From Paenibacillus sonchi (GTDB taxonomy: Bacteria; Bacillota; Bacilli; Paenibacillales; Paenibacillaceae), in assembly GCF_016772475.1 (NCBI RefSeq), contig NZ_CP068595.1, forward strand, positions 5,952,001 through 6,016,000: a DNA stretch of 64,000 nt, written 5' to 3'. A program made the translations under genes and the position numbers. Positions 8,462 through 36,066 of the stretch are shown here, piece after piece; position 1 is the stretch's first letter, and the number at the start of each line of letters is the position of its first letter. Under the pieces are notes generated by a model that saw only the letters and a list, made by a program, of their open reading frames with translations, was not told where the DNA came from and did no database searches.

Positions 8462-9934
8462 TTATATTTCAGAGTTCGGCCCATCGTTCAGATCCGTCAT
8501 CATATGCTCGGCAATCAGCTGCTGTTTGCGGGTCCAAACCAATTCGCTCAGATTCACACGGTACACTTCGGGATTCAGCTTGCGCAAATACTCCGGCCAG
8601 AACAAATCAATCTGTTCCTGATGGTAACGGCGGATTTCATCCAGCACCGGCAGCTTGTAGACCTGGAACCCGTTCACAAAAATCGGTTCCAGCATCGATA
8701 CCGCCTCGTATTTCTCCACATATTTCTGCAGATACGGATGCAGCGGATTGAACAGCTTCAAGCGTCTACCGCTGCGCGGTTCCTGCTCGCCAGGGAAGCT
8801 GATGTAATCGGCCAAGGCCTTGCCTTTGGGGCCGACGATCCGGAAGACTTCCTTTTTGCCGGGCGTAGATACTTTCTCCGGGTTGGAGGATATCTTGATC
8901 GTCGGCACCATTTCACCGGCAGGCGATTCAATCTCGACAAGCTTGTACACACCGCCCAAGGAAGGCTGGTCTGAGGCTGTGATGAGCTGTGTGCCGACAC
9001 CCCATGTGTCAATTGCCGCTCCTTGCGATTTCAAGTTCATGATCGTATTTTCGTCCAGATCATTGGAGGCTACGATCTTCACATAGTCCAAACCTGCCTC
9101 ATCCAGCATTTTACGCGCCTGAATGGACAAATAAGCCAAGTCACCGCTGTCCAGCCGGATGGCGTTCATCCGCTTGCCCGCCGCTTCCAGCATCTTCGCT
9201 GTATTGATCGCATGCGGCACACCGCTGCGGAGGGTATCAAAGGTATCCACCAGCAGGGTAACGCCATCCGGCATCACCTTGGCATACGCATCGAAGGCCT
9301 CCTGCTCGCTGGCAAAGCTCTGTACCCAGGAATGGGCATGGGTGCCCTTGGTGGGAATGCCGAATTTCTTGCCGGCAAGCATGTTCGAGGTGGCATGAAA
9401 GCCGCTTATATAAGCCGCGCGGGCGCCCCAGACAGCCGCATCTGCTTCCTGCGCGCGCCGGGTCCCGAACTCCAGCAGCGTATCCTTCGGGGCCACCTGC
9501 TTAATCCGGGATGCCTTGGTGGCGATCAGGGTCTGGTAGTTCATGAAATTCAGGATGGCCGTCTCTACGAGCTGCGCCTCCATGATGGTGCCCTCAACCC
9601 GGACCAGCGGTTCATCCGGGAAAACCAGCGCCCCCTCTTTCATGGAATAGATACTGCCCTGGAAATGGAACTGCAGCAGTTCCTCCAGAAAAGCAGGCGC
9701 ATAGTTCTCTTCCTGCTCCGACAGGTAGCGGATATCCTCTTCCGTAAAACGCAGCTCAGAGATATATTGGGTGATGCGCTCCAGCCCGGCGAATACGGCA
9801 AAGCCGTTGCCGAACGGAAGCTTGCGGAAATAGGCTTCGAACACCGCTCTCCGCTTATGGCTTCCATTCACCCAGTGGGCGTACATCATATTGATCTGAT
9901 ATTTGTCTGTATGTAGAGCAAGTTCTCTCCTCAA
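8462..9934 (-). CDS. pncB: Nicotinate phosphoribosyltransferase
   Basis: This 490-residue enzyme converts nicotinate and PRPP to nicotinate mononucleotide, the committed step of the Preiss-Handler NAD salvage route. Family segments are clear: the N-terminal LHTDKYQINMMYAHW, the central FGTRRAQEADAAVWGARAAYISGFHATSN containing the active-site histidine region, and VASNDLDENTIMNLKSQGA in the phosphate-binding barrel. The start is TTG at 9934, set by AGGAG at the right spacing and by the conserved N-terminus directly after it. It is last of three genes, 15 bp after the nicotinamidase, whose product it uses. Confidence 0.95.
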   Translation of the reverse strand: MRRELALHTDKYQINMMYAHWVNGSHKRRAVFEAYFRKLPFGNGFAVFAGLERITQYISELRFTEEDIRYLSEQEENYAPAFLEELLQFHFQGSIYSMKEGALVFPDEPLVRVEGTIMEAQLVETAILNFMNYQTLIATKASRIKQVAPKDTLLEFGTRRAQEADAAVWGARAAYISGFHATSNMLAGKKFGIPTKGTHAHSWVQSFASEQEAFDAYAKVMPDGVTLLVDTFDTLRSGVPHAINTAKMLEAAGKRMNAIRLDSGDLAYLSIQARKMLDEAGLDYVKIVASNDLDENTIMNLKSQGAAIDTWGVGTQLITASDQPSLGGVYKLVEIESPAGEMVPTIKISSNPEKVSTPGKKEVFRIVGPKGKALADYISFPGEQEPRSGRRLKLFNPLHPYLQKYVEKYEAVSMLEPIFVNGFQVYKLPVLDEIRRYHQEQIDLFWPEYLRKLNPEVYRVNLSELVWTRKQQLIAEHMMTDLNDGPNSEI

Positions 9935-22247: not shown

Positions 22248-22484
22248 ATGGATTCTCCTACTCTCTATTTTCTCTGGTTCTCTCTGACCCAGAAGTTTGT
22301 TTCTATATAATATATCAGCGGCAAGCTCCAGGGAACCCCTTATCTTGTCCGGAAGCCCCAATTGTGAGAAGTGAAATTGACAGACTTTGGAAAACGTGTT
22401 GTAGTAGGAATGTGCAGGATAGTAATTTTTAACATTTTAAGTTATTTTTACTTTTCTTAAATTTTGCATATTCGGAGGATAACC

Positions 22485-23303
22485 ATGGAACAGCATTCGG
22501 AGCAGCATGGAAGCATCATCCGCTACCGCAGCGGCCGGCTCAGCCGGGAAGAGGATACGATTGTGGCAGAGCAACCGGTAACCGTCAAAATCAACGGCGA
22601 AGAATTCGTTACCCTGGTCTGCACACCGGAGTACATCGAGGATATGGTTGTCGGGTATTTGGCATCGGAGGGCATTATCCGGGGAATGCAGGATATCCGG
22701 CAGCTGTGGACACAGGAAGAAGAAGGCTTTGTGCATGTAACTACAGACCGTTGGAATCCGCTCCACCGCCAGCTTTTTGCCAAACGTTATGTCACCTCCT
22801 GCTGCGGGTCCAGCCGCCACGGGTTCGTCTATATCAATGATGCACGGACCGCCAAAAGTATAACAGGAGTTCATACCCTGCTTACTTTCGATGATTGCTT
22901 CCGCCTCATGGATGAGGTGCTTAGCGGCGCTGAGCTGTTCCACCGGACTGGAGGCGTACACTGTGCCGCACTCTGTAATTCGGAAGGGATCGTGCTCTCC
23001 CGCAGTGATATTGGACGCCACAATGCGCTGGACAAAATTTACGGGCACTGTCTGAGGACAGGCATCGATCCCGGCAATCAGATCATCGCCTTCAGCGGCC
23101 GCATTTCCTCGGAGATTCTGCTCAAGGCGGCTAAAATCGGGTGTGAGATCATTTTATCCAAATCTGCTCCTACGGGCCTGGCTGTTGAACTGGCAGAGCA
23201 GCTGGGGATCACCGCGGTAGGCTTCATCCGGCAGAATTCCTGCAATGTGTATACACATCCCGAGCGGATCAGCGACCTGGGGCCACTGGAAATGAAAAGA
23301 TAA
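22485..23303 (+). CDS. fdhD: FdhD, formate dehydrogenase sulfurtransferase
   Basis: FdhD moves sulfur from a cysteine desulfurase to the molybdenum cofactor, a step needed for active formate dehydrogenase. The 272-residue protein shows the family landmarks: LVCTPEYIEDMVVGYLASEGII, the cysteine pair in YVTSCCGSSRHGF, HRTGGVHCAALC, GRHNALDKIYG and SKSAPTGLAVELAEQLGI. The ATG at 22485 follows CGGAGG. The target FdhF is encoded in the facing operon at 32936-35080, so this gene belongs functionally to the formate/hydrogen island. Confidence 0.95.
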   Translation: MEQHSEQHGSIIRYRSGRLSREEDTIVAEQPVTVKINGEEFVTLVCTPEYIEDMVVGYLASEGIIRGMQDIRQLWTQEEEGFVHVTTDRWNPLHRQLFAKRYVTSCCGSSRHGFVYINDARTAKSITGVHTLLTFDDCFRLMDEVLSGAELFHRTGGVHCAALCNSEGIVLSRSDIGRHNALDKIYGHCLRTGIDPGNQIIAFSGRISSEILLKAAKIGCEIILSKSAPTGLAVELAEQLGITAVGFIRQNSCNVYTHPERISDLGPLEMKR

Positions 23304-23432
23304 AACAAGCAATTTCAAGCATAAAGCTCACTGTTCTGTAAATTTACTTTTGTTACAATATTTACAAGTCATGTTCAGCCGTTATGTGACTATGTCGGAC
23401 AGCCGAGGGAGGGATGCGCAACGTACCCGATA

Positions 23433-24482
23433 TTGGAACAATTAGCGTCTGGCGGATCTGTGAGCCAGCAGAATTTGGCGGATCTGATCAGCCATCTTGA
23501 AGGAGGTCTCCGAAGGCGGCTGCATGATCTGGCCCATAAGGCAAGAATCACAGCCTACGGCACCGCCGTTTACTTGCGCGGACTAATCGAATTCTCAAAT
23601 ATCTGCAAACAAAACTGCCTGTACTGCGGCCTGCGCTCCGGGAATAGAACCTTAAGCCGTTACCGGCTGCTGCCGGAAGAGATTCTCGATTGCTGCCGTG
23701 AGGGCTACGCCTTGGGCTACCGTACGTTTGTACTGCAGAGCGGTGAAGACGACTGGTATACCACGGACAAGCTGGTGCGGTTGATCACATCGGTCAAACA
23801 GCAGTTCCCGGATGCCGCGCTGACACTGTCGGTCGGTGAGCGGGATGATGAAAGTTATACAAGGCTGTACGCGGCGGGTGCAGACCGTTTTTTGCTGCGT
23901 CATGAAACTGCCTCTGCCCCTCTGTACCGCGCACTCCATCCTACGATGGAATATGCGGAACGCCGGGACCGCCTCCGTGCCCTGCAGCGGATCGGCTATC
24001 AGGTGGGAGCGGGATTCATGGTCGGTCTGCCCGGGCAGACCGCTGCCGATTTGGCGGACGATCTGCTGTATCTGCAGGAGCTGCAGCCGGATATGATCGG
24101 CATCGGACCTTTTTTGCCGCACCGGGACACTCCGCTGAGGGACGAGCAGCCGGGAACGGTAGAGAACACACTCGACATGATTGCCCTGGCCCGGCTGATG
24201 GTGCCGGATGCCCTGATTCCGGCGACTACGGCGATGGGGACCGCCCATCCGAACGGACGGGAGCGGGCGCTGCAGGCTGGAGCGAATGTCCTGATGCCCA
24301 ACCTCTCCCCTATGTCCGTACGGGCCAAATATATGCTCTACAATAACAAAATCTGTACGGGCGACGAATCCGCCCAGTGCAGATTCTGTCTGGAGCAGCG
24401 GGTGAAGTCCGCCGGCTTCCATGTGGATATGGGACGCGGCGACAGCTTGAAGCATCTCTCCCGCTCTCTCCAGGAACAATGA
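23433..24482 (+). CDS. hydE: [FeFe]-hydrogenase maturase HydE (radical SAM)
   Basis: HydE acts on the HydG-made iron-cysteine complex during assembly of the H-cluster diiron unit. The protein (about 349 residues) has the radical-SAM motif CKQNCLYCG (C58, C62, C65) and the HydE pattern around it: AYLRG-like VYLRGLIEFSNIC, FVLQSGED, and MVGLPGQTAADLADDLLYL. The start is uncertain. The TTG at 23433 lies 19 nt after a strong AGGGAGGG, too far for normal spacing. An ATG at 23414 lies right on that site but one base out of frame, so an extra C in the CCC at 23426-23428 could be hiding the true start. Confidence 0.93.
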   Translation: MEQLASGGSVSQQNLADLISHLEGGLRRRLHDLAHKARITAYGTAVYLRGLIEFSNICKQNCLYCGLRSGNRTLSRYRLLPEEILDCCREGYALGYRTFVLQSGEDDWYTTDKLVRLITSVKQQFPDAALTLSVGERDDESYTRLYAAGADRFLLRHETASAPLYRALHPTMEYAERRDRLRALQRIGYQVGAGFMVGLPGQTAADLADDLLYLQELQPDMIGIGPFLPHRDTPLRDEQPGTVENTLDMIALARLMVPDALIPATTAMGTAHPNGRERALQAGANVLMPNLSPMSVRAKYMLYNNKICTGDESAQCRFCLEQRVKSAGFHVDMGRGDSLKHLSRSLQEQ

Positions 24483-24523
24483 AGTCCTGATCATAAAGAT
24501 AATCCAGAAAGAAGTGGATATGA

Positions 24524-26038
24524 GTGAACAAGCTGAATGAACGCCGGACAGCGGATTTTATTCAAGACGAAGAGATTAGGGAAGCCCTGCAGTATGGCTC
24601 GGATGCAGCATCCGACCCGCAGATCATTGCCGCCATCCTGGAAAAAGCAAAGGCCTGCAAGGGCTTAAGCTCCCGGGAAGCAGCCGTGCTGCTCCATGTG
24701 GAGGACAAGGAAACGCTGGAGCAATTGTACCGGGTCTCCCGGGGCATTAAGGAACAGATATACGGCAACCGGATCGTCCTGTTTGCACCGCTGTATGTCA
24801 GCAACTATTGTGTTAATAATTGTGTATACTGCGGATACAAGCATTCCAACTCGGAGTTTGCGCGCAGCCGCCTGAATGCAGCTGAAATTACCGAAGAGGT
24901 CAAGGTGCTGCAGGCTCTCGGACATAAAAGACTGGTGCTGGAGGCCGGCGAAGACCCCCGCAACTGCTCTATCGACTATATTATCGATTGCATCCGGACG
25001 ATCTATGACACCAAGCTGGACAATGGCAGCATCCGGCGGATCAACGTCAATATCGCCGCAACGACAGAAGAAGATTACCGGAGGCTTGCGGCAGCCGGAA
25101 TCGGCACCTACATCCTTTTCCAGGAGACATACCATCGGCCCAGCTACCGGAATTTCCATCCGGAAGGACCCAAACATGATTACGACTGGCATACGACGGC
25201 CATGGACCGGGCCATGGCTGCTGGCATTGACGATGTCGGCATCGGGGTTCTATATGGCCTCTACGACCATAAATACGATACTATTGCCATGCTGAAGCAT
25301 GCGGAGCATCTGGAGCAGGCGTTCGGCTGCGGCCCGCATACAATCTCTGTCCCCCGCCTGCGTGCAGCCGAAAACGTGAATCTGGACAATTACCCCCATC
25401 TGGTCAGCGATGCGGATTTTGCCAGAATCGTTGCGGTGCTGAGAATGGCTGTGCCCTATACCGGAATGATCCTGTCCACCCGCGAGGATTCTGAATTTCG
25501 CGATCAGATTATCAGACTCGGCATCTCGCAGATCAGCGCGGGTTCTGCGACTGGTGTCGGTGCCTATAGTGTCAATAAGAACAAGGAGGATACTCCGCAG
25601 TTCACTGTCGGCGACCACCGCTCGCCGATGGAAATCATCAAAAGCCTGTGCAAGGACGGCTATGTGCCCAGCTACTGCACAGCCTGCTACAGGGAAGGCC
25701 GCACCGGCGACCGCTTTATGCAGCTGGCCAAATCGGGCCAGATTCACAATGTCTGCCAGCCCAACTCGCTGATGACCTTCCAGGAATACCTGCTGGATTA
25801 TGCCGATGAGGAAATGCGGGCCATCGGTGAGCAGACGATCCGCGAGAATCTGGAGCGCATTCCGCGGGAAGGCGTCAGAAAAGCTACCCGTGAGCAGCTG
25901 CAGCGGATTCATGCGGGGAGAGGGATTTGCGGTTCTAGCGTGAATGTGCCGGGTAGAGAGCTGACCCCGGGGCTAATATGCAAAAAAGCAGAGTATTCCA
26001 CCGGGACTGGCGTAAAGAAAATTAATTTGCAAATTTAG
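24524..26038 (+). CDS. hydG: [FeFe]-hydrogenase maturase HydG (radical SAM)
   Basis: HydG cleaves tyrosine to form CO and cyanide ligands on an iron-cysteine synthon for the H-cluster. The 504-residue protein has both required iron-sulfur sites: the radical-SAM CX3CX2C (C96, C100, C103 in NYCVNNCVYCG) and the C-terminal CX2CX22C (C385, C388, C411), whose presence separates HydG from ThiH. The start is GTG at 24524; an overlapping ATG at 24519 stops after six codons. It follows hydE by 41 bp and ends at a strong terminator. Confidence 0.96.
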   Translation: MNKLNERRTADFIQDEEIREALQYGSDAASDPQIIAAILEKAKACKGLSSREAAVLLHVEDKETLEQLYRVSRGIKEQIYGNRIVLFAPLYVSNYCVNNCVYCGYKHSNSEFARSRLNAAEITEEVKVLQALGHKRLVLEAGEDPRNCSIDYIIDCIRTIYDTKLDNGSIRRINVNIAATTEEDYRRLAAAGIGTYILFQETYHRPSYRNFHPEGPKHDYDWHTTAMDRAMAAGIDDVGIGVLYGLYDHKYDTIAMLKHAEHLEQAFGCGPHTISVPRLRAAENVNLDNYPHLVSDADFARIVAVLRMAVPYTGMILSTREDSEFRDQIIRLGISQISAGSATGVGAYSVNKNKEDTPQFTVGDHRSPMEIIKSLCKDGYVPSYCTACYREGRTGDRFMQLAKSGQIHNVCQPNSLMTFQEYLLDYADEEMRAIGEQTIRENLERIPREGVRKATREQLQRIHAGRGICGSSVNVPGRELTPGLICKKAEYSTGTGVKKINLQI

Positions 26039-26071
26039 GCGGCATTTTCATCGATAGTGGAATTGAAAACG

Positions 26072-26101
26072 GCTGCGCATCCCTTCAATGGGCAGCGCAG
26101 C
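26072..26101 (+). terminator. Rho-independent terminator after hydG
   Basis: The stem GCTGCGC..GCGCAGC with an inner CCC/GGG pairing is followed by TTTTT at 26102-26106. Confidence 0.9.
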
Positions 26102-26106
26102 TTTTT

Positions 26107-26355
26107 GAGCTGGCATACAGCAGAATACGATTCGAACACGCAGGACAATAAGCATAAGTAACCCTAACCAGGCCCTGGCCCATTCGTACCTTTCACGTGA
26201 ATCTGCTTTAATTACCGCTCCTAATTCCAGCTTGTAACTTCTGCTAATCGGTTTAAGCTAATCTAAGTTCACTAATTCCACCGCGCACCCCCGCTGCTAG
26301 CAAACAGTACACCCGCCTTAACCCCACGAAGGAATAGCACCATTGGCTACAATAA
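26107..26355. other. Non-coding gap between convergent hydG and hydF
   Basis: No gene, repeat or promoter was recognised here; it separates the two terminators of the facing operons. Confidence 0.5.
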
Positions 26356-26397
26356 AAGAGTAATGAGATTCCAATTAATCAGAGTCTCATTACTCTT
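26356..26397 (-). terminator. Terminator after hydF operon
   Basis: A perfect 13-bp stem (AAGAGTAATGAGA / TCTCATTACTCTT) with a 16-nt loop is followed on the minus strand by a TTTTATT stretch, 31 bp beyond the hydF stop. Confidence 0.85.
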
Positions 26398-26427
26398 GAA
26401 TTCAAAACAGATGCCGCCTGCTTCAGA

Positions 26428-27735
26428 CTATGGGCAGGGACATGGTATCCGGCCTCCGGCTTCGCAGCCATTGCCGGAGCCCCCATTCTCCCAAGCCAGC
26501 ATAGCCGACGGGAACATCTCAATGGCCCGGGGAAAAACACCCTGAACATAGGCGATAAACACACCATAATTGACTATCGGCACACCGGCTGCCTCCGCTT
26601 CATCCAGTCTCCGCAGCATTGCCCGGCGGTTCAGCATACAGGCACCGCAGTGGATGATCAGCGAATACTGCTCCAGATCCGCCGGGAAATCACTGCCTGC
26701 TGCGTGGTCGATCAACAGTTGCCGGCCCGTGATCTCCCGCAGCCAGCGGGGAATCTTGACAGAGCCGATGTCATCAGACTGGCGGTGGTGCGTGCAGGCT
26801 TCGGCAATCAGGACCCGGTCACCGTCTTTCAGTCTGGTGATGGAGCGCGCACCGCTTACCAGCCGGGGAAGATCGCCTTTGTACCGGGCAAACAGAATGG
26901 AGAATGAAGTAAGCGGCACATCCGGCGGTGTATCCGCCTGAACCTTCAGAAACACCTGTGAATCCGTGATAACAATACGCGGCTTGCCGGTCAATCGGGA
27001 CAGAGTGTGGCTCAGCTCCTGCTCCTTAGTGACCACAGCCAATGCATCACATTCCATAATATCGCGGATGGTCTGCTGCTGAGGGAGAATCAGCCTGCCC
27101 TTCGGGGCAGCCTTATCAACCGGCACCACCAGCACGGCCACATCGCCGGGGCTCAGCAGATCCCCGACCAGCCGGAAACGCTGCTCCTCCTGGGCGAGCC
27201 TGTCTGCTGCCGCCCTCTTCAGCGCGCCGATTCCGCTTCCGTTCATCGTGCTGACCGGGAACAGCCGGATGGAAGAGCCGGCCTCCAGCCGCAAGGCCAA
27301 CTGGCTGCACCGTTCTTCGAGCGACGGCGGGTCAGATGTGATTTTATCGATTTTGTTTAATACAATCATTACATTTGTTCCAGCCGCGGCCAATCTCTGG
27401 AGCAGCTCCCGCTCAAACTCCCCCGCACCCGCCTCTGCATCTACCACGAGGAGCGCCAGATCTGTTTTTTTCAGAACATGCAGCGTCTGGCGGATACGCT
27501 GCTCACCAAGTTCCCCCGTGTCGTCCAGTCCGGCAGTGTCGATCAGCACGACCGGACCCGCCGGGAGCAGCTCCATAGGCCGGTACACGGGATCGGTTGT
27601 CGTCCCGCTTACCGGGGAGACGATCGACACTTCCTGTCCGCAGAACGCATTGGTCAGACTTGATTTGCCGGCATTACGGCGGCCAAAAACAGCGATATGC
27701 GCTCTTTCTCCACGCGGTGTATCATTCACGCTCAT
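26428..27735 (-). CDS. hydF: [FeFe]-hydrogenase maturase HydF (GTPase and scaffold)
   Basis: HydF is the scaffold that receives the diiron precursor and passes it to apo-hydrogenase. The 435-residue protein has a GTPase domain with P-loop GRRNAGKS (18-25), the DTAGLDD switch and NKID. The C-terminal [4Fe-4S] site is the CxH..HCxxC pattern (C314, H316, H362, C363, C366). The ATG overlaps the aspA stop (ATGA), showing translational coupling. It is last in the fdhF-hydA operon. Confidence 0.96.
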   Translation of the reverse strand: MSVNDTPRGERAHIAVFGRRNAGKSSLTNAFCGQEVSIVSPVSGTTTDPVYRPMELLPAGPVVLIDTAGLDDTGELGEQRIRQTLHVLKKTDLALLVVDAEAGAGEFERELLQRLAAAGTNVMIVLNKIDKITSDPPSLEERCSQLALRLEAGSSIRLFPVSTMNGSGIGALKRAAADRLAQEEQRFRLVGDLLSPGDVAVLVVPVDKAAPKGRLILPQQQTIRDIMECDALAVVTKEQELSHTLSRLTGKPRIVITDSQVFLKVQADTPPDVPLTSFSILFARYKGDLPRLVSGARSITRLKDGDRVLIAEACTHHRQSDDIGSVKIPRWLREITGRQLLIDHAAGSDFPADLEQYSLIIHCGACMLNRRAMLRRLDEAEAAGVPIVNYGVFIAYVQGVFPRAIEMFPSAMLAWENGGSGNGCEAGGRIPCPCP

Positions 27736-29185
27736 TCTGGGATGAGCCTCCTTCCATGTTCAGCACCGGACTGTCCGCTGCGGCCGGGAATTCCCGGCTT
27801 GGTTACCTCCAGCGGATGCAGCACCTCTTGAATCTGTTTCCCGGTCATCCATCCGCCCTCCACCAGCAGTTGCTCCAGGGGACGGCCGGATGCAGCTGCC
27901 GCCTTGGCAAGTGCTGCAGCATTGTCATAACCAAGATAGGTTATCGTAGCGGCAGCCAGCACTCCTGAACGGTCCACATGCTCACGGCACCGGGGTACAT
28001 CCAGCTTGAGGCCGCTCAAGCAGCGTTCCCGGAACAGCGGAATGCCGTGCAGCAGCAGCTCCAGAGATTCCAATAAAGCCTCGGCAAGTACAGGGGTGAA
28101 CGCGTTCAACTCCAATTGACCGCTTGCAGCCGCCAGCGTTACAGCTGTATCCTCCGCGATCACCCTCATCGCCACAGAGCCCAGCATCTCGGCGATGACC
28201 GGGTTTACTTTCCCGGCATGATCGAAGACCCCGCCTGCACTGCCGGGAGAATATATTCGCCGATCCCTCCGGCAGGACCGGAAGACAGCAGCCGGAAGTC
28301 ATTGGAAATCTTCAGCAGATTGACCGCTGCGGCCTTGAGCAGACCGGATACTTCCACGAACACATCCATGTTCTGAGTCCCGTCCATCGGAAAATCGCTC
28401 CGGCAAAGGCCCAGCCCCGTTAGCTCGCGCAGTTCATCAGCTATGGTATAAATATAGGTTAGCGGCGCGTTCATCCCCGTCCCTACAGCCGTTCCTCCGA
28501 TATTGATTTCCCGCAGCCGTTCCTCGGCCTTGTACAGCCGCCAGCGGTCCCGTGCAGCCGCCTTGGCATAGGCTCCGAAGGATTGTCCCGCCAGAATCGG
28601 CAGTGCATCCATCAACTGGGTCCTTCCAAGTCTCAGCAGGTCCGCATATTCATGTTCCTTCACCTGGAACGCTTCCTGAAGTGAAGCCAGCTCTTCGGCC
28701 AGCTGCCGCAGGAGCGGGATGACAGCAATGCGCAGCGCAGTCGGATAGACATCGTTCGTCGACTGATGAAGGTTCACATCATCAATGGGATGGACGATGC
28801 TGTAATCCCCCCTTGATCCCCCCAACAGCTCAATGGCACGGTTCGCTATTACCTCGTTCACATTCATATTGCTGCTGGTTCCCGCTCCCCCTTGATAGGC
28901 ATCAACGATCAAATGCGCGTCCAGACTGCCGTCCAGGATCTCTTCACATGCCGCAAGAATGGCCTGCACCTTCTGCTGCGGCAAAGCATGATTCCGCCCG
29001 TTTACCTTGGCCGCTGCCTGTTTGACCCTGGCGATCGCATGCATCAGCTTACGGTTCGCCGGCCGTCCTCCGGCCGCGAAGTTCTCCTTCGCCCGCGCGG
29101 TATGAATGCCATAATAGGCATCCTGCGGAACGGGCAGGCTGCCCAGAGCATCACGCTCCATCCGGTACGTAGAATCATCCGTCAT
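27732..29185 (-). pseudogene. aspA: Aspartate ammonia-lyase (AspA/fumarase family), single-base frameshift
   Basis: The family enzyme splits aspartate to fumarate and ammonia. The first 326 codons are intact (YYGIHTARAKENF, GGAGTSSNMNVNEV, HQSTNDVYPTA, TQLMDALPI, GGTAVGTGMN) up to the signature GSSIMPGK. A stop follows at once. One extra A in the AAA run (28209-28211) restores MPGKVNPVIAEML and continues to a TGA at 27732, giving a normal 484 residues. The family is commonly found inside hydrogenase-maturation operons, where it may supply ammonia for the dithiomethylamine bridge; that role is inference. Only this one base is wrong, so a sequencing error is likely. Confidence 0.85.
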
Positions 29186-29192
29186 CTATGCT

Positions 29193-30266
29193 TCACCCGC
29201 CAATCTGTGACATCTGGCGGACGGTATTCTCCTGCAGCGGCCGGGAGGAACCGCTCTCCTTAAGCCCGTCCGGCATTTCATGCCGCCCGGGCTTATGTTC
29301 CAGCGACCGCAGGAACAATTGCTTGAGCAGTTCAGCCTTCCCGATATACGGCCTTACATTCCATTCGTCATTCCAGTACAGGCAGGGCTTGATATGACCG
29401 CTGGCCGTGATGCGCAGCCGGTTGCAGGTCATGCAGAAATGCTTGCTGACCGGGTCGATCAGCCCGAATTGTCCCGCCGCCCCCTTAATGCGGTAATACC
29501 GGGCTGGCCCCGAATCCGTCGTGTCCATTGTTACATCACGACCGAGCGCTGCCCCATGACCGGGATCATCAGAGCAGACCGGCTCATACGCCCAGCCTGC
29601 CTTGGAACAGCGCTCCAAAATTCCGCCAAGCGGCATATATCCTGCTTGCCAGCCCTCCGTTCCCCGGCCGATCGGCATATATTCAATGAACCGGATATCC
29701 AGAGGGTATTTCAGGGTCAATTGCAGAAAGGACTCGATTTCATCATCGTTTACCCCTTTCATGACAACCATATTCACCTTCACCCGTTCGAAGCCTGCAT
29801 TCAGGCTGCTGCCAATGGCGTGAAGCACCCTCCCGACATCCCCTCCTCGGGTAATCTTGGCGAAACGCTCCGGCTGGAGGGAGTCCAGACTGATATTGAC
29901 ATCGGTCAATCCGGCATCATGCAGCACCCTGGCCTTGGAAGCCAGCAGCATTCCATTCGTTGTAAGACCTATGCGCTCAATCCCGCTTACCGCATGCAGA
30001 CGGGCTACCAGTTCCTCTAACCGCGGACGCAGCAGCGGCTCACCGCCGGTAAGCCGCACCTTAGTTACACCCATATCTGCAAGCACGGCCACCACCGAGG
30101 CAATTTCATCATAGGTCAGCGGCTCCGGTAAAGAAGCTGCGCCCGCTTGGTCCGGTCTGCAATACTCACAAGACAGATTGCAGCGGTCCGTGACGGAGAT
30201 GCGCACATAATTGTGTATACGGCCAAAGGAATCGGCCAAAGCCTGGGCATCAGACAAGACATTCAC
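29193..30266 (-). CDS. moaA: GTP 3',8-cyclase MoaA (molybdopterin synthesis)
   Basis: MoaA starts molybdenum-cofactor synthesis by rearranging GTP. The 357-residue protein has the N-terminal radical-SAM motif CNLSCEYC (C29, C33, C36) and the second cluster site near FCMTCNRLRITASGHIKPC. LTGGEPLLRP and FIEYMPIG are also family landmarks. It lies 23 bp after a ferredoxin gene and 7 bp before aspA. A moaA copy inside the formate dehydrogenase operon would tie cofactor supply to FdhF production. The ribosome site AAGGTGA sits unusually close to the ATG at 30266. Confidence 0.94.
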   Translation of the reverse strand: MNVLSDAQALADSFGRIHNYVRISVTDRCNLSCEYCRPDQAGAASLPEPLTYDEIASVVAVLADMGVTKVRLTGGEPLLRPRLEELVARLHAVSGIERIGLTTNGMLLASKARVLHDAGLTDVNISLDSLQPERFAKITRGGDVGRVLHAIGSSLNAGFERVKVNMVVMKGVNDDEIESFLQLTLKYPLDIRFIEYMPIGRGTEGWQAGYMPLGGILERCSKAGWAYEPVCSDDPGHGAALGRDVTMDTTDSGPARYYRIKGAAGQFGLIDPVSKHFCMTCNRLRITASGHIKPCLYWNDEWNVRPYIGKAELLKQLFLRSLEHKPGRHEMPDGLKESGSSRPLQENTVRQMSQIGG

Positions 30267-30289
30267 CTTGCTTTCTAATGTGGATCAAT

Positions 30290-30874
30290 TCAGAACCGGA
30301 TAAGTCCGCCGAACTGCTGAAGTGTCTGTGCACTGGCCGCCCTTTTGGCAGCGGTGTCCATGGATACATCATCGGGAACCACAAGCTGAAGCGCATGCGT
30401 GGGACAAATCTGTACGCATGCCGGACCGTTCCCGCTCTCTTCACACAAATCGCATTTGCTGGCAACCAGCCGTTCCTTGCGCGCCCATACCCCGTTTGCG
30501 TTCGAGCGAAGTCCAGGCTGTACCTGCTTCTGCCCGCCCCGGAACTCGGGAACCATAGCAATCGCTCCAAATGGGCAGACCAGCATACAGGTCTTGCAGC
30601 CGATACAGGTATCCTGGTTGATTGAGATACTGCTGCCTATATTGGTTATTGAGCCATTCGGACATACATTGGCGCAAGGAGCATCCTCGCATTGACGGCA
30701 CTGCACCGGGGCGGTGACCTGATCGGTCTCCATTACCCTCAGCCGCGGATAAAAGTCGGGATTCTCTTCCTGCTGCAGGAACATATTATCCGCGGAATGG
30801 GCGGACACACAAGCCACCTCACAGGTATGGCAGCCAATGCACAGACCAGGATCGGCGATGACAAAACTGTTCAT
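30290..30874 (-). CDS. Four-cluster ferredoxin subunit of the hydrogenase-formate dehydrogenase complex (HycB/HydN-like)
   Basis: This 194-residue electron carrier has four [4Fe-4S] motifs in the HycB/HydN arrangement: CIGCHTCEVAC near the start, CRQCEDAPCANVCP, CIGCKTCMLVCP, and a split fourth site made by CDLC and the distant CVQICP. In formate-hydrogen complexes such proteins wire formate dehydrogenase to hydrogenase. The ATG overlaps the hydA stop (ATGA), with GGAGG inside the end of hydA. Compared with the second ferredoxin at 32295-32939 it lacks the long insert before the last cluster. Confidence 0.9.
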   Translation of the reverse strand: MNSFVIADPGLCIGCHTCEVACVSAHSADNMFLQQEENPDFYPRLRVMETDQVTAPVQCRQCEDAPCANVCPNGSITNIGSSISINQDTCIGCKTCMLVCPFGAIAMVPEFRGGQKQVQPGLRSNANGVWARKERLVASKCDLCEESGNGPACVQICPTHALQLVVPDDVSMDTAAKRAASAQTLQQFGGLIRF

Positions 30875-32295
30875 AATTTTCCTCCTTTACGCCCAGCGCT
30901 TATTGGGGAGACGTTCTTCTCCCTGGATTGATACGTCGTATGGAGCAGATGATGGGGTACATGGCCCAGAGGCTCACCCAGGAAATCCTTATACAGCTTG
31001 ATAATGGCCGGATTCTCATGTGATTTCCGCACCTGCTGATGGGAATCATGGCGGTAGACAGAGCTTTTTCTGGCCTGATAGGCTGTCTTGCGCAGGGTCT
31101 CCAGCAGCAGCTTGGGCTGTCCGCCTCCGCTGACACAGCCCTCCGGACAGCCCATCACTTCAATAAAATGATAAGGGCAATGGCCTGCCTTCACCTGGTT
31201 CAGAACCGCAGACACATATTTCAGCCCGGCGACGACGGCGACCTTCAGTTCCAGCTCGCCCAGCTGGACCGTTGCCGTGCGGAGCCCTTCTTCGCCCCGG
31301 ACAAAATCTAACTGGAGGTTCGGGATCGTCTCATGCGTCACCAGCTCATAACCGGTACGGATGGCCGCTTCCATCACCCCGCCGGTTACCCCAAAGATTG
31401 ATCCCGCCCCGGAATATAAGCCCAGCGGGGAATCAAACGGTTCATCCGGCAGATTCACAAAGTCTATGCCTGCATCTTTAATCAGATGGGCCAGCTCCCG
31501 GGTAGTGATGACTACATCGACTTCCCGGAGCCCGTCCACCTCCATCTCTTCACGGCTGCACTCAAACTCCTTGCAGGTGCAGGGCATGACCGCCACACTG
31601 TAAATTTTCGCCGGGTCCACCCCGTCCTGCTTGGCGCCATAGGTTTTGACGAGCGCACCAACCATTTGCATCGGCGACTTGCAGCTCGATAAATGGTCAA
31701 GCAGCTCCGGCGCAGCCGTCTCAGCATGCTTGACCCATGCAGGGCAGCAGGAAGTGAACATGGGCAGGCGCTCACCCGACAATACCCTTCCGATCAGCTC
31801 CGTTCCTTCTTCCATAATCGTAACGTCCGCACCGAAGTTGGTATCATAGATCCGGTCAAACTTCAGCCGCCGCAGTGCGGCGGCCATCTTGCCCGGGGTC
31901 AATGTGCCCAGGGGCAGGCCGAATTCCTCGGCCAGGGAAACCCTGATGGCCGGTGCGCATTGCACCACCTTAAACAGCGCCGAATCTGCCAGCGCACGCT
32001 TGACTTCAAGCGCTTGGCCGGTGGAATAGGCTGCGAACAAAGGCTCCCGCACACTTGGGAGCTGTCCCCTCTGCAGCCGCTTGGCCTTCAGGCCATCCGA
32101 AGCTTCCAGATGGTCCGGAGCATAAGCGGTACAGATCTGCACGCACTGTCCGCAGATTACGCAGCGGTGCGCATCCACTGTCTGGGGCTCGCCCGGCTCT
32201 CCGGTGATGGCATCCACCGGGCAGACCGCCGCGCAGCGGCGGCAGCCGGTGCACAGCTCTGAATCAATATGAATGATGGGCTCACTGGACGGCAT
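30871..32295 (-). CDS. hydA: [FeFe]-hydrogenase catalytic subunit
   Basis: The 474-residue enzyme interconverts protons and H2 at the H-cluster. Two N-terminal [4Fe-4S] sites are visible (C15, C18, C21, C25 and C45, C48, C51, C55). All three H-cluster motifs are intact: L1 TSCCPAW (181-187), L2 MPCTCKEFE (237-245) and L3 EVMGCPEGCVSGGGQP (from 379). No further N-terminal cluster domains or NADH site are present, which fits a subunit fed by partner ferredoxins. Genes for FdhF and two HycB-like ferredoxins overlap or abut it, as expected for a formate-linked (group A4-like) hydrogenase. Its start overlaps the preceding stop by one base (TAATG). Confidence 0.96.
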   Translation of the reverse strand: MPSSEPIIHIDSELCTGCRRCAAVCPVDAITGEPGEPQTVDAHRCVICGQCVQICTAYAPDHLEASDGLKAKRLQRGQLPSVREPLFAAYSTGQALEVKRALADSALFKVVQCAPAIRVSLAEEFGLPLGTLTPGKMAAALRRLKFDRIYDTNFGADVTIMEEGTELIGRVLSGERLPMFTSCCPAWVKHAETAAPELLDHLSSCKSPMQMVGALVKTYGAKQDGVDPAKIYSVAVMPCTCKEFECSREEMEVDGLREVDVVITTRELAHLIKDAGIDFVNLPDEPFDSPLGLYSGAGSIFGVTGGVMEAAIRTGYELVTHETIPNLQLDFVRGEEGLRTATVQLGELELKVAVVAGLKYVSAVLNQVKAGHCPYHFIEVMGCPEGCVSGGGQPKLLLETLRKTAYQARKSSVYRHDSHQQVRKSHENPAIIKLYKDFLGEPLGHVPHHLLHTTYQSREKNVSPISAGRKGGKL

Positions 32296-32939
32296 TAGAA
32301 TGTCCCCCCTTCTCTGTTCAAGCTGCGGGAGCGGCCCGTCCCCGCCTCAACCAGCCGCAGCGCCTTTTCCGGGCAGACGGCCACACAAGCGGGGAAGGGA
32401 TTACGGTCTTGAGCTGCGGCGGCTGAAGACCCCCTGCCGCCGGCACCCTCCCCGGCAGCAGAACCACCGGGGAGTTCCGTGTTCCTGCACAGATCACATT
32501 TGTAGGCAGTGATCCGGGTTTTGCGCTGCAGCCTGCTGTCCCGGCGTTCCTGCAGCAGCGGCTGCGGCAGCTCCGCTCCGCCGCTGTAGGCCTTGTACAG
32601 GCTGATCGCCCCGAACGGGCAGGCCAGGGCACAAGCCTTGCAGCCGATGCAGGCTTCCGCGTCGATGGCAATGACCCCGTCCTGCTGGCGGATCGCCTGG
32701 ACCGGACAGGCTCCCGCGCAAGGGGCGTTCTCGCATTGCCGGCATTGAACCGGCATCGTGAAGCTGTCGGTGCGGATGACATACAGCCGGGGAAGCACCG
32801 GCATCGTGACAGTGCCGACTGCGGTGCCCACACCGTTGTCACGGTTGTGCACCGCGAAGCAGGCCAGCTCACAGGCCTTGCAGCCGATGCATTTGGCGGC
32901 TTCGGCAATGACCAGGGAATTGGAAGCGGCGTGGTTCAT
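32295..32939 (-). CDS. Four-cluster ferredoxin subunit with Gly/Ala-rich insert (HycB-like)
   Basis: The second HycB-like electron carrier has 214 residues and four [4Fe-4S] motifs: CIGCKACELAC, CRQCENAPCAGACP, CIGCKACALACP, and CDLC plus a distant CVAVCP. Between the two halves of the last site lies an insert of about 30 residues rich in Gly, Ala and Ser, absent from the paralogue at 30290-30874. The ATG overlaps the fdhF stop (ATGA), so it is translated directly after the formate dehydrogenase and probably sits next to it in the complex. Confidence 0.9.
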   Translation of the reverse strand: MNHAASNSLVIAEAAKCIGCKACELACFAVHNRDNGVGTAVGTVTMPVLPRLYVIRTDSFTMPVQCRQCENAPCAGACPVQAIRQQDGVIAIDAEACIGCKACALACPFGAISLYKAYSGGAELPQPLLQERRDSRLQRKTRITAYKCDLCRNTELPGGSAAGEGAGGRGSSAAAAQDRNPFPACVAVCPEKALRLVEAGTGRSRSLNREGGTF

Positions 32940-35080
32940 TCCGGAACCGCCCCCACCAGCATCTGCTTTCTCAGCTCCGCATATTGTTTGCGGACCAAAG
33001 CTTCGGCCTGTGCCTGGTCGGATATCGCTTCAATCCGGACCGCACAGTATTTAAATTCCGGTGTTTTGGAGACAGGGTCCAGATAATCAACCGTCAGCTC
33101 ATTGCAGGCCCCGATCCAGAAATGATAGGTCATGTAAGTTGCACCTTTTTTGATCCGGCCGCTGACCTGCGCCCTGGCCATGATGTGCCCCCGCCGGGAA
33201 TAGACCTGCACCAATTGGCCGTCCGCAATGCCATGCTCCGCCGCATCCTCCAGACTGATCTGGATGTTCCCCGGCTCATCGGACAGCTGGCTGAGCGCCC
33301 GGCAATTGCCGGTCATCGTGCGCACGGAATAATGCCCGACCTCCCGGACCGTGGAGAGCGTCAAAGGATATTCGTCATCCGGCTGCTCCAGCGGCGCTCT
33401 CCATTCACAGGCGAACAGCTGTCCTTTGCCGCTTGGCGTGGTAAACCGGTTCCCTTGGTACAGATAAGGGGTCCCCGGATGATCCTCGGAAGGACAAGGC
33501 CACTGAACCCCTCCAAGTGCTTCCATCTTGCTGTAGCTGGCTCCGGCGAAGCTTGGACACAGCTTCCGCATCTCATCCCAGATTTCCTCGGAATTCTTAT
33601 ATGCCATCGGGTAACCCATGGCTGTAGACACTTCACTGATGATCTGCCAGTCCGGCTTCACTTCGCCGGGCGGATCGATTGCTTTGCGGATACGCTGGAA
33701 ACCCCGGTCGGCCGAAGAATAGACGCCGTCATGCTCGCCCCAGGAGGTGGCTGGCAGAATCACATCGGCGTGCAGCGCCGTTTTGTTCATGAAGATATCC
33801 TGGACAATCACCAGCTCCAGCTGATCCAGCGCCTCCCGCAGCTCGGCGGCATTCGGGTCGCTCTGCACCGGATCTTCACCGAAGATATAATAAGCCTTGA
33901 TTTTGTTCTCCTTCAGGATGAGATGCGGTACCTCCGTCAGCCGGTATCCTGTCTTATCCGGGAGGGATGTGCCCCAGGCTTTCTCGAATTTCTTGCGGAT
34001 TTTGGCATCTTCCACAGACTGGTAGCCAGGATAGACGTTAGGCAGCGCGCCCATGTCGCAGGAGCCCTGCACATTATTTTGTCCGCGTACCGGACCGATC
34101 CCGACACTTTCCCTGCCGAAATGACCGGTCAGAAGCGCAAGCGAAGCCAATCCCTTGACCACATCCACGGCCTGGGCAAACTGGCATACCCCCATGCCGT
34201 AGAGAATCATCGCTTTGCCGGATTTGGCATATTGGCGCATCACCTTGCGGATGTCTGCCGCCCGCACACCGGTTATACGCTCTGCATATTCAGGGGTATA
34301 TTTCTCCACATTCGCCTTGTATTCATCAAAGCCCTGAACGAAATTGGAGACATAATCCTTGTCATACAGCTCCTCTTCAATAAGCACATGGCCAAATGCG
34401 TTCACCAGCGCCATGTTCGTCCCGCCCTTCAGCGGCAGCCAGGTGTCGGCAATCCGCGCCGATTCGGTCTTCCGGGGGTCCGCGACAATCAGCACCGCCC
34501 CCTTCTGTTTCGCTTTTACAATTCTTCTGGCCACAATCGGGTGGGTAACGGCAGCATTGTAGCCAAAGATCAGCAGCAGATCGGTGTTTTCAATTTCCGG
34601 AATCGAATTGGACATCGCCCCGTCTCCCAGCGAATACGTCAGTCCCGCAACAGACGGACCGTGACAGACCCGCGCACAGTGGTCGATATTATTCGTCCCG
34701 ATAACCGCCCGCATAAACTTTTGCATGACATAGTTGGCCTCATTGCCCGGCCCTCTGGCCGAACCCGTGCCCATAATCGCATCCGGCCCGTATTTCTCCT
34801 TGATCGCGTTCAGCTTCTCCGCAGTAAATCCTATCGCCTCTTCCCACGACACCTCTTGCAGCACACCTTCCTTGCGGATCATAGGCTTGCGGAGGCGGGA
34901 GGTCAGCAGCTGCGGATCATTCAGGAAATCCCAGCCGTAATGGCCTTTCAGACAAAGATTCCCTTCGTTCGTCCGGCCATCAGCAGGCTCTGCGCCTACG
35001 ACCTGTCCATTCTCGACCAGCAAATACAGCTGGCAGCCGCTGCCGCAATAAGGGCATACAGTTAATACTTTATTTTCCAT
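32936..35080 (-). CDS. fdhF: Formate dehydrogenase H-type catalytic subunit (Mo/W-bis-MGD, Cys form)
   Basis: The 714-residue molybdopterin oxidoreductase has an N-terminal [4Fe-4S] site (C9, C12, C16, C43) and the formate dehydrogenase active-site segment HCARVCHGPSV. Cysteine 139 replaces the selenocysteine of E. coli FdhF and is followed by the conserved histidine. The MGD-binding domains run to the C-terminus. No signal peptide or twin-arginine motif is present, so it is cytoplasmic. The ATG at 35080 follows AGAGGTGA. With the two ferredoxins and HydA it makes the full subunit set of a hydrogen-dependent CO2 reductase or formate-hydrogenlyase. Confidence 0.95.
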   Translation of the reverse strand: MENKVLTVCPYCGSGCQLYLLVENGQVVGAEPADGRTNEGNLCLKGHYGWDFLNDPQLLTSRLRKPMIRKEGVLQEVSWEEAIGFTAEKLNAIKEKYGPDAIMGTGSARGPGNEANYVMQKFMRAVIGTNNIDHCARVCHGPSVAGLTYSLGDGAMSNSIPEIENTDLLLIFGYNAAVTHPIVARRIVKAKQKGAVLIVADPRKTESARIADTWLPLKGGTNMALVNAFGHVLIEEELYDKDYVSNFVQGFDEYKANVEKYTPEYAERITGVRAADIRKVMRQYAKSGKAMILYGMGVCQFAQAVDVVKGLASLALLTGHFGRESVGIGPVRGQNNVQGSCDMGALPNVYPGYQSVEDAKIRKKFEKAWGTSLPDKTGYRLTEVPHLILKENKIKAYYIFGEDPVQSDPNAAELREALDQLELVIVQDIFMNKTALHADVILPATSWGEHDGVYSSADRGFQRIRKAIDPPGEVKPDWQIISEVSTAMGYPMAYKNSEEIWDEMRKLCPSFAGASYSKMEALGGVQWPCPSEDHPGTPYLYQGNRFTTPSGKGQLFACEWRAPLEQPDDEYPLTLSTVREVGHYSVRTMTGNCRALSQLSDEPGNIQISLEDAAEHGIADGQLVQVYSRRGHIMARAQVSGRIKKGATYMTYHFWIGACNELTVDYLDPVSKTPEFKYCAVRIEAISDQAQAEALVRKQYAELRKQMLVGAVPE

Positions 35081-35112
35081 CTCTTGTCACCTCTTCTTGT
35101 GAATTTTTGCAC

Positions 35113-35118
35113 ATTATA
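35113..35118 (-). promoter_or_regulatory. Candidate -10 element for fdhF
   Basis: A TATAAT hexamer on the minus strand lies 33 bp before the fdhF ATG, just after the terminator-like hairpin. No good -35 at 16-18 bp was found, so an activator or a different start is possible. Confidence 0.35.
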
Positions 35119-35128
35119 TACAACAAAA

Positions 35129-35178
35129 AATAAGCCAATACAAAGCATACTGTTCCATACACCGTGTAATGGCTTATT
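35129..35178 (-). terminator. Terminator or attenuator between DUF2294 gene and fdhF
   Basis: On the minus strand AATAAGCCA pairs with TGGCTTATT across a 32-nt loop and is followed directly by six T. It would end the DUF2294 transcript or attenuate read-through into fdhF. It starts about 36 bp after the DUF2294 stop. Confidence 0.6.
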
Positions 35179-35213
35179 AAAAAGCGAAGTGACCCACGGC
35201 CCTTTCTCTCTAA

Positions 35214-35563
35214 TCAAACCGATTTATTAAGTTGTATGATGACGCTCCGGCCTTCATGATACTGATCACAAAGTCTCCAAGAATATGAAAACCTGCAGCC
35301 TACCGTCTCTATCAGTTCCTCCATAAAACCGCGCTCCAAATAAGGCTTCAGCACCTTCCAGTACTCCGCAACGAGATCAGCCGCGCCCTCCTTCAGCAGA
35401 ATTTCCGACAGACTGGAGAGAATCCCCCTGATTTCAATAGTGATCTGCGACTCATTATCCAGCTTCACCTTCACATTCTCCGGCCCTTTCCCCGGTAATG
35501 CTTCACAATCTTCACGGCAAGTCTTCTAATCTTCTCCTGGTATTCAAAATCAGCCTCAGACAT
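35214..35563 (-). pseudogene. DUF2294-family protein, single-base frameshift
   Basis: DUF2294 proteins are about 115 residues and of unknown function. The visible 86-residue frame has the body (ITIEIRGILSSLSEILL, ETVGCRFSYSWRLCDQ). The conserved N-terminus (MSEADFEYQEKIRRLAVKIV, then KHYRGKG) lies in another frame from an ATG at 35563 that has AGGTGAGGG upstream. Adding one base at 35482-35483 (coding GGGCCGG to GGGCCCGG) gives RGKGPENVKVKL and a normal 116-residue protein. It lies at the head of the fdhF operon, separated by a hairpin. A link to formate metabolism is only suggested by position. Confidence 0.7.
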
Positions 35564-36066
35564 CCAAACACCCTCACCTGAGCATTCCTTTATATGGAAT
35601 TTCTTATAAGCAATTCATATGTTAAACCCATCCATAAATGTTGTCAATTGATAAAATCGCTTCATAAAATGAAGTCCGATGTTTGCAGATCTCGGGTTGA
35701 GGTTGTGCTGGTGCAGAATATTGGAGTCCTCACCGCTGTGTTCCTAGACTGTCTAAGTTGGACTGGTGCCCGTTGGAGCGCTAATTGTATTTCGTGCAAT
35801 TAAAAGAGGACGTATCCGCCTTTTTTCAGCGCTAAATGTATTCTGTACAGTTAAAAATGGCGTTTGACTGCGTTTTTGTTGATTGAGTGCGATTGAAGTG
35901 TACGAAATACAGTTAAATCTATTTTTGAACCGATATCAGCCTATTGAGTTGCACAAAATACAGTTACCGTTTGGACACAGCCCTCCAAAAAACAAACGAG
36001 CAATTATCGCGATTTAACTACATTACTCACATTATGCAGAGGAGATGTTCGCCGGAAAGCAAAAAA
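35564..36066. other. Non-coding stretch with short dispersed repeats
   Basis: There is no gene between the DUF2294 start and the gnd terminator. It holds four related motifs at about 50-60 bp spacing, listed separately. Confidence 0.5.
35787..35968. repeat. Four short repeats of the TGTA(T/C)TTCGTGCA / TGYACGAAATACA type
   Basis: Related motifs occur near 35787 (TGTATTTCGTGCAATTAAAA), 35847 (TGTATTCTGTACAGTTAAAA), 35899 (TGTACGAAATACAGTTAAAT) and 35950 (TTGCACAAAATACAGTTACC), spaced 51-60 bp, the first two inverted relative to the last two. Similar palindromes recur at 43609-43680. Confidence 0.5.

Follow-up and report, generated by a model that had tools for sequence, protein, structure and literature searches.

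The hydrogen-dependent CO2 reductase (HDCR) of Thermoanaerobacter kivui (PDB 7qv7), described in PMC6119302, joins a formate dehydrogenase, FdhF, that lacks selenocysteine (PMC6288185) to two four-cluster ferredoxins of the HycB type and an [FeFe] hydrogenase, HydA2. The enzyme is among the fastest known CO2 hydrogenating catalysts, and mutagenesis reported in PMC10413684 ascribes its filament to the C-terminal helices of HycB3 and HycB4. A purified, reversible complex of the solvent-producing Clostridium beijerinckii, CbFdh/Hyd, has the same subunits and a cysteine-type FdhF (PMC12905484), and formate hydrogenlyase-1 (FHL) of Escherichia coli converts formate to H2 and CO2 with a [NiFe] hydrogenase and membrane subunits (PMC6288185). 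The same 2018 review reports HDCR-like clusters from 18 organisms and notes them in many Paenibacilli; it refers to work in which Paenibacillus polymyxa extracts released H2 from formate, and concludes that an HDCR-type complex may replace FHL. Here we analyse an island of this kind at positions 22485 to 35563 of a 64,000-nucleotide stretch of DNA from the soil bacterium Paenibacillus sonchi (the window; contig NZ_CP068595.1, positions 5,952,001 to 6,016,000), which is part of a 7.78 Mb genome in three contigs, together with the leader that precedes fdhF.

In our judgement the product of the island is very probably a soluble formate dehydrogenase-[FeFe] hydrogenase complex with four subunits, of the HDCR, or group A4, type, encoded together with its maturation genes; it would act mainly as a cytosolic formate hydrogenlyase and be expressed from an RNA-attenuated operon. 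We also lean, with less assurance, towards a second conclusion: the leader would contain a new family of cis-regulatory RNA, shared by Paenibacillus, Clostridium and Desulfosporosinus and dedicated to their fdhF operons. This antiterminator/terminator switch would be coupled to a small MpsC-like open reading frame (ORF) and in Paenibacillus would control a non-filamentous, formate-venting variant of HDCR.

The four structural genes lie on the minus strand as fdhF (32936..35080; 714 aa), hycB-a (32295..32939; 214 aa), hydA (30871..32295; 474 aa) and hycB-b (30290..30874; 194 aa), with successive overlaps of 4, 1 and 4 bases. This order recurs in 18 of 19 Paenibacillus loci (the contig of the other is cut) and in many Clostridium and Desulfosporosinus loci, so the arrangement is not chance; the L042 contig is without fdhF. 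HydA exceeds the FeFe_hydrog_A cut-off (430 bits; cut-off 406) and is 96% identical to a protein of Paenibacillus graminis and likewise to that of P. jilunlii (L090). Compared with solved structures, it was aligned end to end with T. kivui HydA2 (7qv7_D; E 9.9e-210), whereas CpI and other [FeFe] enzymes matched far less well, most of them only from about residue 95. The H-cluster motifs TSCCPAW, MPCTCKEFE and EVMGCPEGCVSGGGQP are intact in the window sequence.

In a tree of 97 HydA rows the window protein fell into a Paenibacillus clade (support 98) nested within an 80-row clade (support 100) that contains T. kivui HydA2, while 15 long HydA proteins of other Paenibacillaceae formed a separate group (support 100); five of the 20 long-HydA loci (L011, L014, L024, L025 and L028) were left out of this tree because the script used plus-strand matches only. 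The clade is termed A4 here after its characterised members rather than by HydDB classification, and L108 and L109, labelled A4 beforehand, were placed outside it. The long proteins align to the window HydA mainly from residue 94 onward. An electron-bifurcating HydABC hydrogenase was rejected, as the window HydA stands apart from the long HydA, the type with a HydB-like ORF ahead of it.

FdhF exceeds the Fdh-alpha cut-off of TIGR01591 (911 bits; cut-off 666), and its second-best solved match is T. kivui FdhF (748 bits, E 1e-223). Residue 139 of the window protein is cysteine, as it is in all 18 Paenibacillus loci having fdhF. Across 80 loci, 64 active-site motifs were found, comprising 32 TGA codons (selenocysteine, Sec), 31 cysteines and one chance match (L090). 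The residue neighbouring this site varies with the choice between Sec and Cys: Sec types read U-H-A-P or U-H-S-P and most Cys types C-H-G-P, with exceptions in L074, L088 and L105.

Both HycB proteins match HycB4 and HycB3 of T. kivui HDCR. The best match of hycB-a is HycB4 (7qv7_B), at E 4e-57, and hycB-b matches at E 8e-48. Both exceed the Pfam 4Fe-4S cut-offs; hycB-b, the one of the two compared with NCBIfam, is below every cut-off listed there. The 16 cluster cysteines of hycB-a are invariant in 43 sequences, and hycB-b likewise has 16, as for four clusters. In a paralogue tree hycB-a and hycB-b separate as two ancient paralogues. The Paenibacillus hycB-a proteins form one clade (support 99) and group on the same side as T. 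kivui HycB4, although the two labels need two changes instead of one and several long branches leave its details unsure. By the structure match, this tree and the tails described below, hycB-b is assigned to the HycB3 type. The first-pass annotation of this DNA had described a translationally coupled fdhF, two HycB-like ferredoxins and an [FeFe] hydrogenase with intact H-cluster motifs, beside hydE, hydG, hydF, fdhD and moaA. It had taken them for the HDCR subunit set, expected HydA in group A4 and pointed to cysteine in place of selenocysteine in FdhF. The data above, and the maturation genes treated at the end, agree with it on each of these points.

It did not comment on the ferredoxin tails. 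In a filament-forming HDCR both HycB proteins would carry a C-terminal helix. The hycB-b tail is retained and helix-favouring, as such a filament would need, but that of hycB-a does not fit. We scored each tail by its best 12-residue helix propensity (in kcal/mol, lower being better). T. kivui and 57 further loci from outside Paenibacillus have helix-favouring hycB-a tails (median 0.27, range 0.18-0.42), as does CbFdh/Hyd with its 27-residue HycB4-type tail (0.35), whereas the 20 Paenibacillus copies score 0.62 (0.25-1.07; p 2e-7 without correction for relatedness). Fourteen of these 20 are worse than all 58 others; the remaining six (L031-L035 and L039), with tails of 25-31 residues, lie inside the range of the 58. 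AlphaFold2, run with the same 43 sequences, gave the T. kivui HycB4 control a 20-residue C-terminal helix (172-191) and the window hycB-a no helix after residue 188, its final strand (194-198) being followed by coil; confidence in each of the two models is modest (pLDDT 65). Thus the HycB4-type subunit of Paenibacillus looks to have its C-terminal helix shortened or lost, and the complex is predicted to form no filaments or only short ones. A relative of the T. kivui enzyme that may lack filaments would offer a natural test of what the filament is for, in bacteria that would mostly need the reverse of CO2 hydrogenation.

The operon would begin well upstream of fdhF. A putative sigma70-like promoter (TTGACA-N17-TAACAT; 35619..35647, minus strand) lies about 540 nt before the gene, and TTGACA is visible in 11 of the 19 rows of the leader alignment. 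A small MpsC/DUF2294-like ORF (35214..35563, minus strand) stands upstream of fdhF in the window, where it is frameshifted, and in all 18 Paenibacillus loci with fdhF; in relatives it encodes 116-121 aa. The island as drawn in the first-pass annotation ended at the start of this ORF, 35563. The L090 copy matches PF10057 (MpsC) with E 9.1e-08, and the P. polymyxa type scores 22.1 bits, just below the cut-off of 23; no related solved structure was found by sequence (best E 0.3). An MpsC-like ORF occupies the same place in 11 non-Paenibacillus loci and in L122.

Between this ORF and fdhF lies a conserved attenuator-like RNA (35126..35220, minus strand), in which helices P1-P3 (35170-35220) and a terminator hairpin with its T-run (about 35126-35175) share one strand. 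Its consensus runs GGUU(U/G/C/A)GAUU, P2, P3, AUAA(G/A)CC, hairpin, GG(C/U)UU and T-run. Given the 5' part of 30 sequences, RNAalifold found P1 (columns 1-4/60-63 and 7-9/56-58), P2 and P3, 17 pairs in all with eight double-changed; given the whole element it dropped the outer P1 and chose the terminator (59-68/147-156) instead, so that columns 60-63 are used by both. L060, with a long insert in P3, was omitted from the RNA alignments. P1-P3 as named by hand (19 pairs) are paired in 93.0% of cells compared with 41-60% when slid, with nine pairs double-changed (shuffles 5.9; 5 of 500 as high) and 41 double-changed cells (shuffles 12.3; 0 of 500). The terminator is paired in 97.6% of cells (30-51% when slid) and has 10 double-changed cells (shuffles 2.0; 0 of 500). 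In the window, folding gave -17.1 kcal/mol for P1-P3 (z -2.8) and -21.5 kcal/mol for the terminator (z -5.6). Both the consensus folding and the pairing tests are consistent with an attenuator, in which a conserved 5' structure cannot form together with an intrinsic terminator. Since P1 and the terminator would compete for one strand, fdhF expression is probably set by attenuation.

In each of the 29 aligned elements that have the MpsC-like ORF, the stop codon of that ORF begins between RNA positions -5 and +25, an overlap that suggests control linked to the ribosome or to the product or a metabolite. A ribosome ending the small ORF could mask the 5' strand of P1 and so release the terminator; alternatively, the small protein or a metabolite could stabilise P1. 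The signal may thus be translation of the ORF, its product, or a bound metabolite such as the molybdenum or tungsten (Mo/W) cofactor.

Could the RNA instead be a mere terminator of the small upstream gene, with P1-P3 serving no regulation and fdhF read from its own nearby promoter? A Rex/FNR-like palindrome, ATGTGCAAAAATTCACAA (35097..35114), directly ahead of the fdhF ribosome site, would then be the operator, and the window does contain TATAAT between the T-run and fdhF. Twelve of the 19 loci have the palindrome, at -36 to -30 (Markov-shuffle p 0.00-0.03); it is not at that place in L039 and the six P. polymyxa-type loci. The -10-like sequence, however, is not conserved, on which ground we rejected TATAAT beside the start codon as the fdhF promoter, and in the window only about 45 nt separate the T-run from the start codon. 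Further, most of the double changes fall in P2-P3, which are conserved across Paenibacillus, Clostridium and Desulfosporosinus, while the strand common to P1 and the terminator is nearly invariant; where it does change, in the P1 double change of L073, the alteration at shared column 62 is matched in both competing helices. We therefore regard a mere terminator as unlikely, if worth keeping in mind. The palindrome is a candidate site that may add redox control of fdhF. One P. polymyxa-type locus, L044, has a TGTGA-N6-GCACA site elsewhere in its leader, at about -162 before fdhF.

Several points count against the attenuated HDCR-type operon that we favour. Further pair types are no more numerous than in shuffles, 108 of 500 of which reached the observed number for P1-P3 and 492 of 500 for the terminator. 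All 203 cells of the seven P1 pairs are paired, yet with a single double change, so that the case for the antiterminator helix is mainly its full retention; the RNA could instead combine a terminator with a hairpin upstream of it. The genome scans with the RNA models scored only the best 150 candidates, and their E-values are rough. In the present assembly the MpsC-like ORF and the aspartase-like gene aspA, described below, are both frameshifted. For the enzyme, FdhF scores higher with E. coli FdhH, its best solved match (997 bits), than with T. kivui FdhF. Sequence shows the subunits, their clade and motifs and, for the RNA, pairing and covariation; from these, formation of the complex, its direction and the switching and signal of the RNA are inferred.

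Model R1 of the attenuator-like RNA was run on 26 genomes, of which 17 gave one strong match and nine none or weak ones. In the P. sonchi genome it found one copy, at fdhF (E 7.8e-12), and nothing else to E 10 among the best 150 candidates. One strong copy was present in 15 of the 22 genomes chosen via loci, and also in G204; G164 and G210, which have no A4 HydA, had none (best E 1.4). Matches were absent or weak in six genomes with A4 HydA (Acetobacterium, Anaerospora, Tepidibacter, Clostridium ljungdahlii, Sporomusa and Pelosinus), so the RNA does not accompany every such complex. L122, which lay outside R1 training, has the MpsC-like ORF (60%), the RNA and fdhF (81%) together. A second model, R2, trained on 19 sequences from Paenibacillus alone, recovers 12 loci outside that genus as well as L122, with E 4e-9 to 1.7e-3, its next match being at E 1 in 1.04 Mb, and all the loci found but L066 carry the MpsC-like ORF. 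In L066, from Clostridium magnum, the RNA (8517-8602) precedes fdhF by about 400 nt; this fdhF is more distant (47%), and no MpsC-like ORF is recognisable. The C. beijerinckii locus L060 was found by the RNA models, although its genome (G400) was without a match in the genome scan, and it shares the MpsC-like ORF and the RNA with the window, as do its close kin L054 and L057. Matches were weak in L083, L057, L126-L131 and L133.

A known Rfam cis-regulatory RNA was rejected, no family being above its gathering threshold at the element. Rfam gave no match up to E 5 in the stretch of the window holding it and none above threshold in the window; the L054 stretch gave four chance-level matches far below threshold. 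Across six loci a single match was above threshold, 5_ureB_sRNA in L050, away from the element. The Moco/Tuco riboswitch candidate (PMC2408646) is likewise a leader RNA of molybdoenzyme genes; unlike it, the window RNA has no Rfam match above threshold and is present in one copy in its own genome, at fdhF. A word search of four RNA discovery papers (PMC11109978, PMC8632094, PMC6429828 and PMC2864571) and of literature listings, with supplements and subscription papers outside its scope, found no such element. The leader RNA, its companion MpsC-like ORF, the shortened HycB4-type helix and the co-occurrence with nifH reported below were not found in print in our searches, and the RNA switch is apparently undescribed. 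If real, the RNA would give a first handle on the cell's decision to make formate-H2 complexes and would point to an MpsC/DUF2294 protein as their companion. The first-pass annotation missed the leader ORF, the RNA and the shortened helix, and its claim to novelty was overstated: HDCR clusters in many Paenibacilli had already been reported (PMC6288185), so its central claim is right but known, and the enzyme island itself merely adds one Paenibacillus species to the reported set.

For the role of the complex we turned to the whole genome (G000). It has a single [FeFe] hydrogenase domain and no match to the NiFe large subunit (PF00374), and no gene for a membrane hydrogenase subunit was found within the island. 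This argues against an FHL of the E. coli type, with [NiFe] hydrogenase 3 and membrane subunits. CO dehydrogenase (CooS) was not found in the genome: the only Prismane-family protein is a hydroxylamine reductase (864 bits; cut-off 367), which scores 33 bits with the CO dehydrogenase model (cut-off 478). Without CO dehydrogenase there is no complete Wood-Ljungdahl pathway, and an acetogenic role was rejected; the window host differs in this from that of T. kivui HDCR. The suppositions of the first-pass annotation that the host is non-acetogenic and that no membrane subunit is encoded were thus borne out. The genome also has nifH, two proteins resembling pyruvate formate-lyase (PFL), and five molybdopterin-family matches at four places. 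One of these, a molybdopterin oxidoreductase gene, adjoins a formate/nitrite-family transporter gene (L005 3183-4010; contig C1 of the genome, near 1434471) that is above the TIGR00790 cut-off and below that of the FocA model.

Given the PFL-like genes, by which formate can be made, the lack of CO dehydrogenase and the fact that the only hydrogenase found is in this complex, a formate hydrogenlyase role is best supported, and the direction in the cell is most likely formate to H2. We infer that formate would be oxidised at the Mo/W-bis-pyranopterin guanine dinucleotide site of FdhF, that electrons would reach HydA through the four 4Fe-4S clusters that each HycB carries, and that HydA would reduce protons to H2. 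The overall reaction would be reversible, with the enzyme acting mainly as a cytosolic formate hydrogenlyase in a bacterium that has PFL genes and no CO dehydrogenase.

We surveyed 394 Paenibacillaceae genomes, 70 of which have an [FeFe] hydrogenase domain. By identity to the window HydA, 39 genomes carry the A4 type (at least 71%) and 32 the long type (50-54%, restricted to the C-terminal part). For 31 of the latter 32 a further match lies in an adjoining frame some 630-680 aa long, as a HydB-like neighbour would be expected to give. All 39 A4 genomes have a PFL-like match compared with 292 of 355 others (p 0.001). NifH is above cut-off in 74 of the 394 genomes: 29 of the 39 with A4 HydA and 45 of the 355 lacking it (p 8e-16). 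The link persists among PFL-bearing genomes (p 1e-13); the p values ignore relatedness, and the genome lists and PFL counts were tallied by eye from tables. A4 and long HydA occur together in one genome only (G183), where about three would be expected by chance (p 0.35, not significant).

The nifH link, which holds for 17 of 17 A4 genomes in the genus of the window, raises the question of whether the complex runs mainly as a CO2 reductase that recaptures nitrogenase H2 and holds it as formate, since the P. sonchi genome, with nifH and no NiFe hydrogenase, is without an uptake hydrogenase. But the long HydA is equally linked to nifH (25 of 32 genomes compared with 49 of 362 without it, p 2e-14), so both types may merely mark anaerobic lineages. 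In addition, 10 of the 39 A4 genomes are without nifH above cut-off, and eight genomes with A4 HydA and nifH do possess a NiFe large subunit (G174, G175, G178, G201, G205, G209, G255 and G085). Owing to the link shared by the long type, H2 recapture, at first taken as supported, is kept as a rival only, and we consider it rather doubtful. The remaining two genomes with a NiFe large subunit (G030 and G274) have neither A4 HydA nor nifH. That FdhF and HydA are separate enzymes, the one reducing a ferredoxin pool and the other an independent ferredoxin hydrogenase, is highly improbable: each family also occurs alone in other bacteria, but here the genes overlap, their order is conserved and their products match the subunits of one solved complex. 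The purified C. beijerinckii complex, moreover, has the same subunit set (PMC12905484).

Two of the genes discussed are disrupted in the window. An aspartase/fumarase-like gene (aspA; 27732..29185, minus strand) between moaA and hydF is split by a one-base frame shift into ORFs 28205-29185 and 27732-28187, the first of which scores 461 bits with PRK12273, below the cut-off of 510. The gene is present in 17 of 19 Paenibacillus loci and reads in a single frame, with no intervening stop, in 14 of 14 that hold both parts, and on this ground a conserved programmed frameshift was rejected; a strict script test counted 10 of 14, as the matches in L044, L046, L047 and L048 extend a few bases beyond the stop. 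The MpsC-like ORF, about 7 kb away, is also shifted by a single base, and together the two shifts hint at assembly errors.

The other five accessory genes exceed their NCBIfam cut-offs. On the minus strand lie moaA, for molybdopterin precursor synthesis (29193..30266; TIGR02666, 344 bits, cut-off 284), and hydF, the H-cluster maturation GTPase (26428..27735; TIGR03918, 546 bits, cut-off 325.6). In L060, L054 and L057, unlike the window, hydE, hydF and hydG were not found beside the complex. The window has both H-cluster radical SAM maturases on the plus strand, hydG (24524..26038; TIGR03955, 684 bits, cut-off 312) and hydE (23433..24482; TIGR03956, 485 bits, cut-off 254.6). These are preceded on the same strand by fdhD, the formate dehydrogenase sulfurtransferase (22485..23303; TIGR00129, 224 bits, cut-off 140.9), whose ORF is listed from a TTG at 22464 and has its first ATG at 22485.

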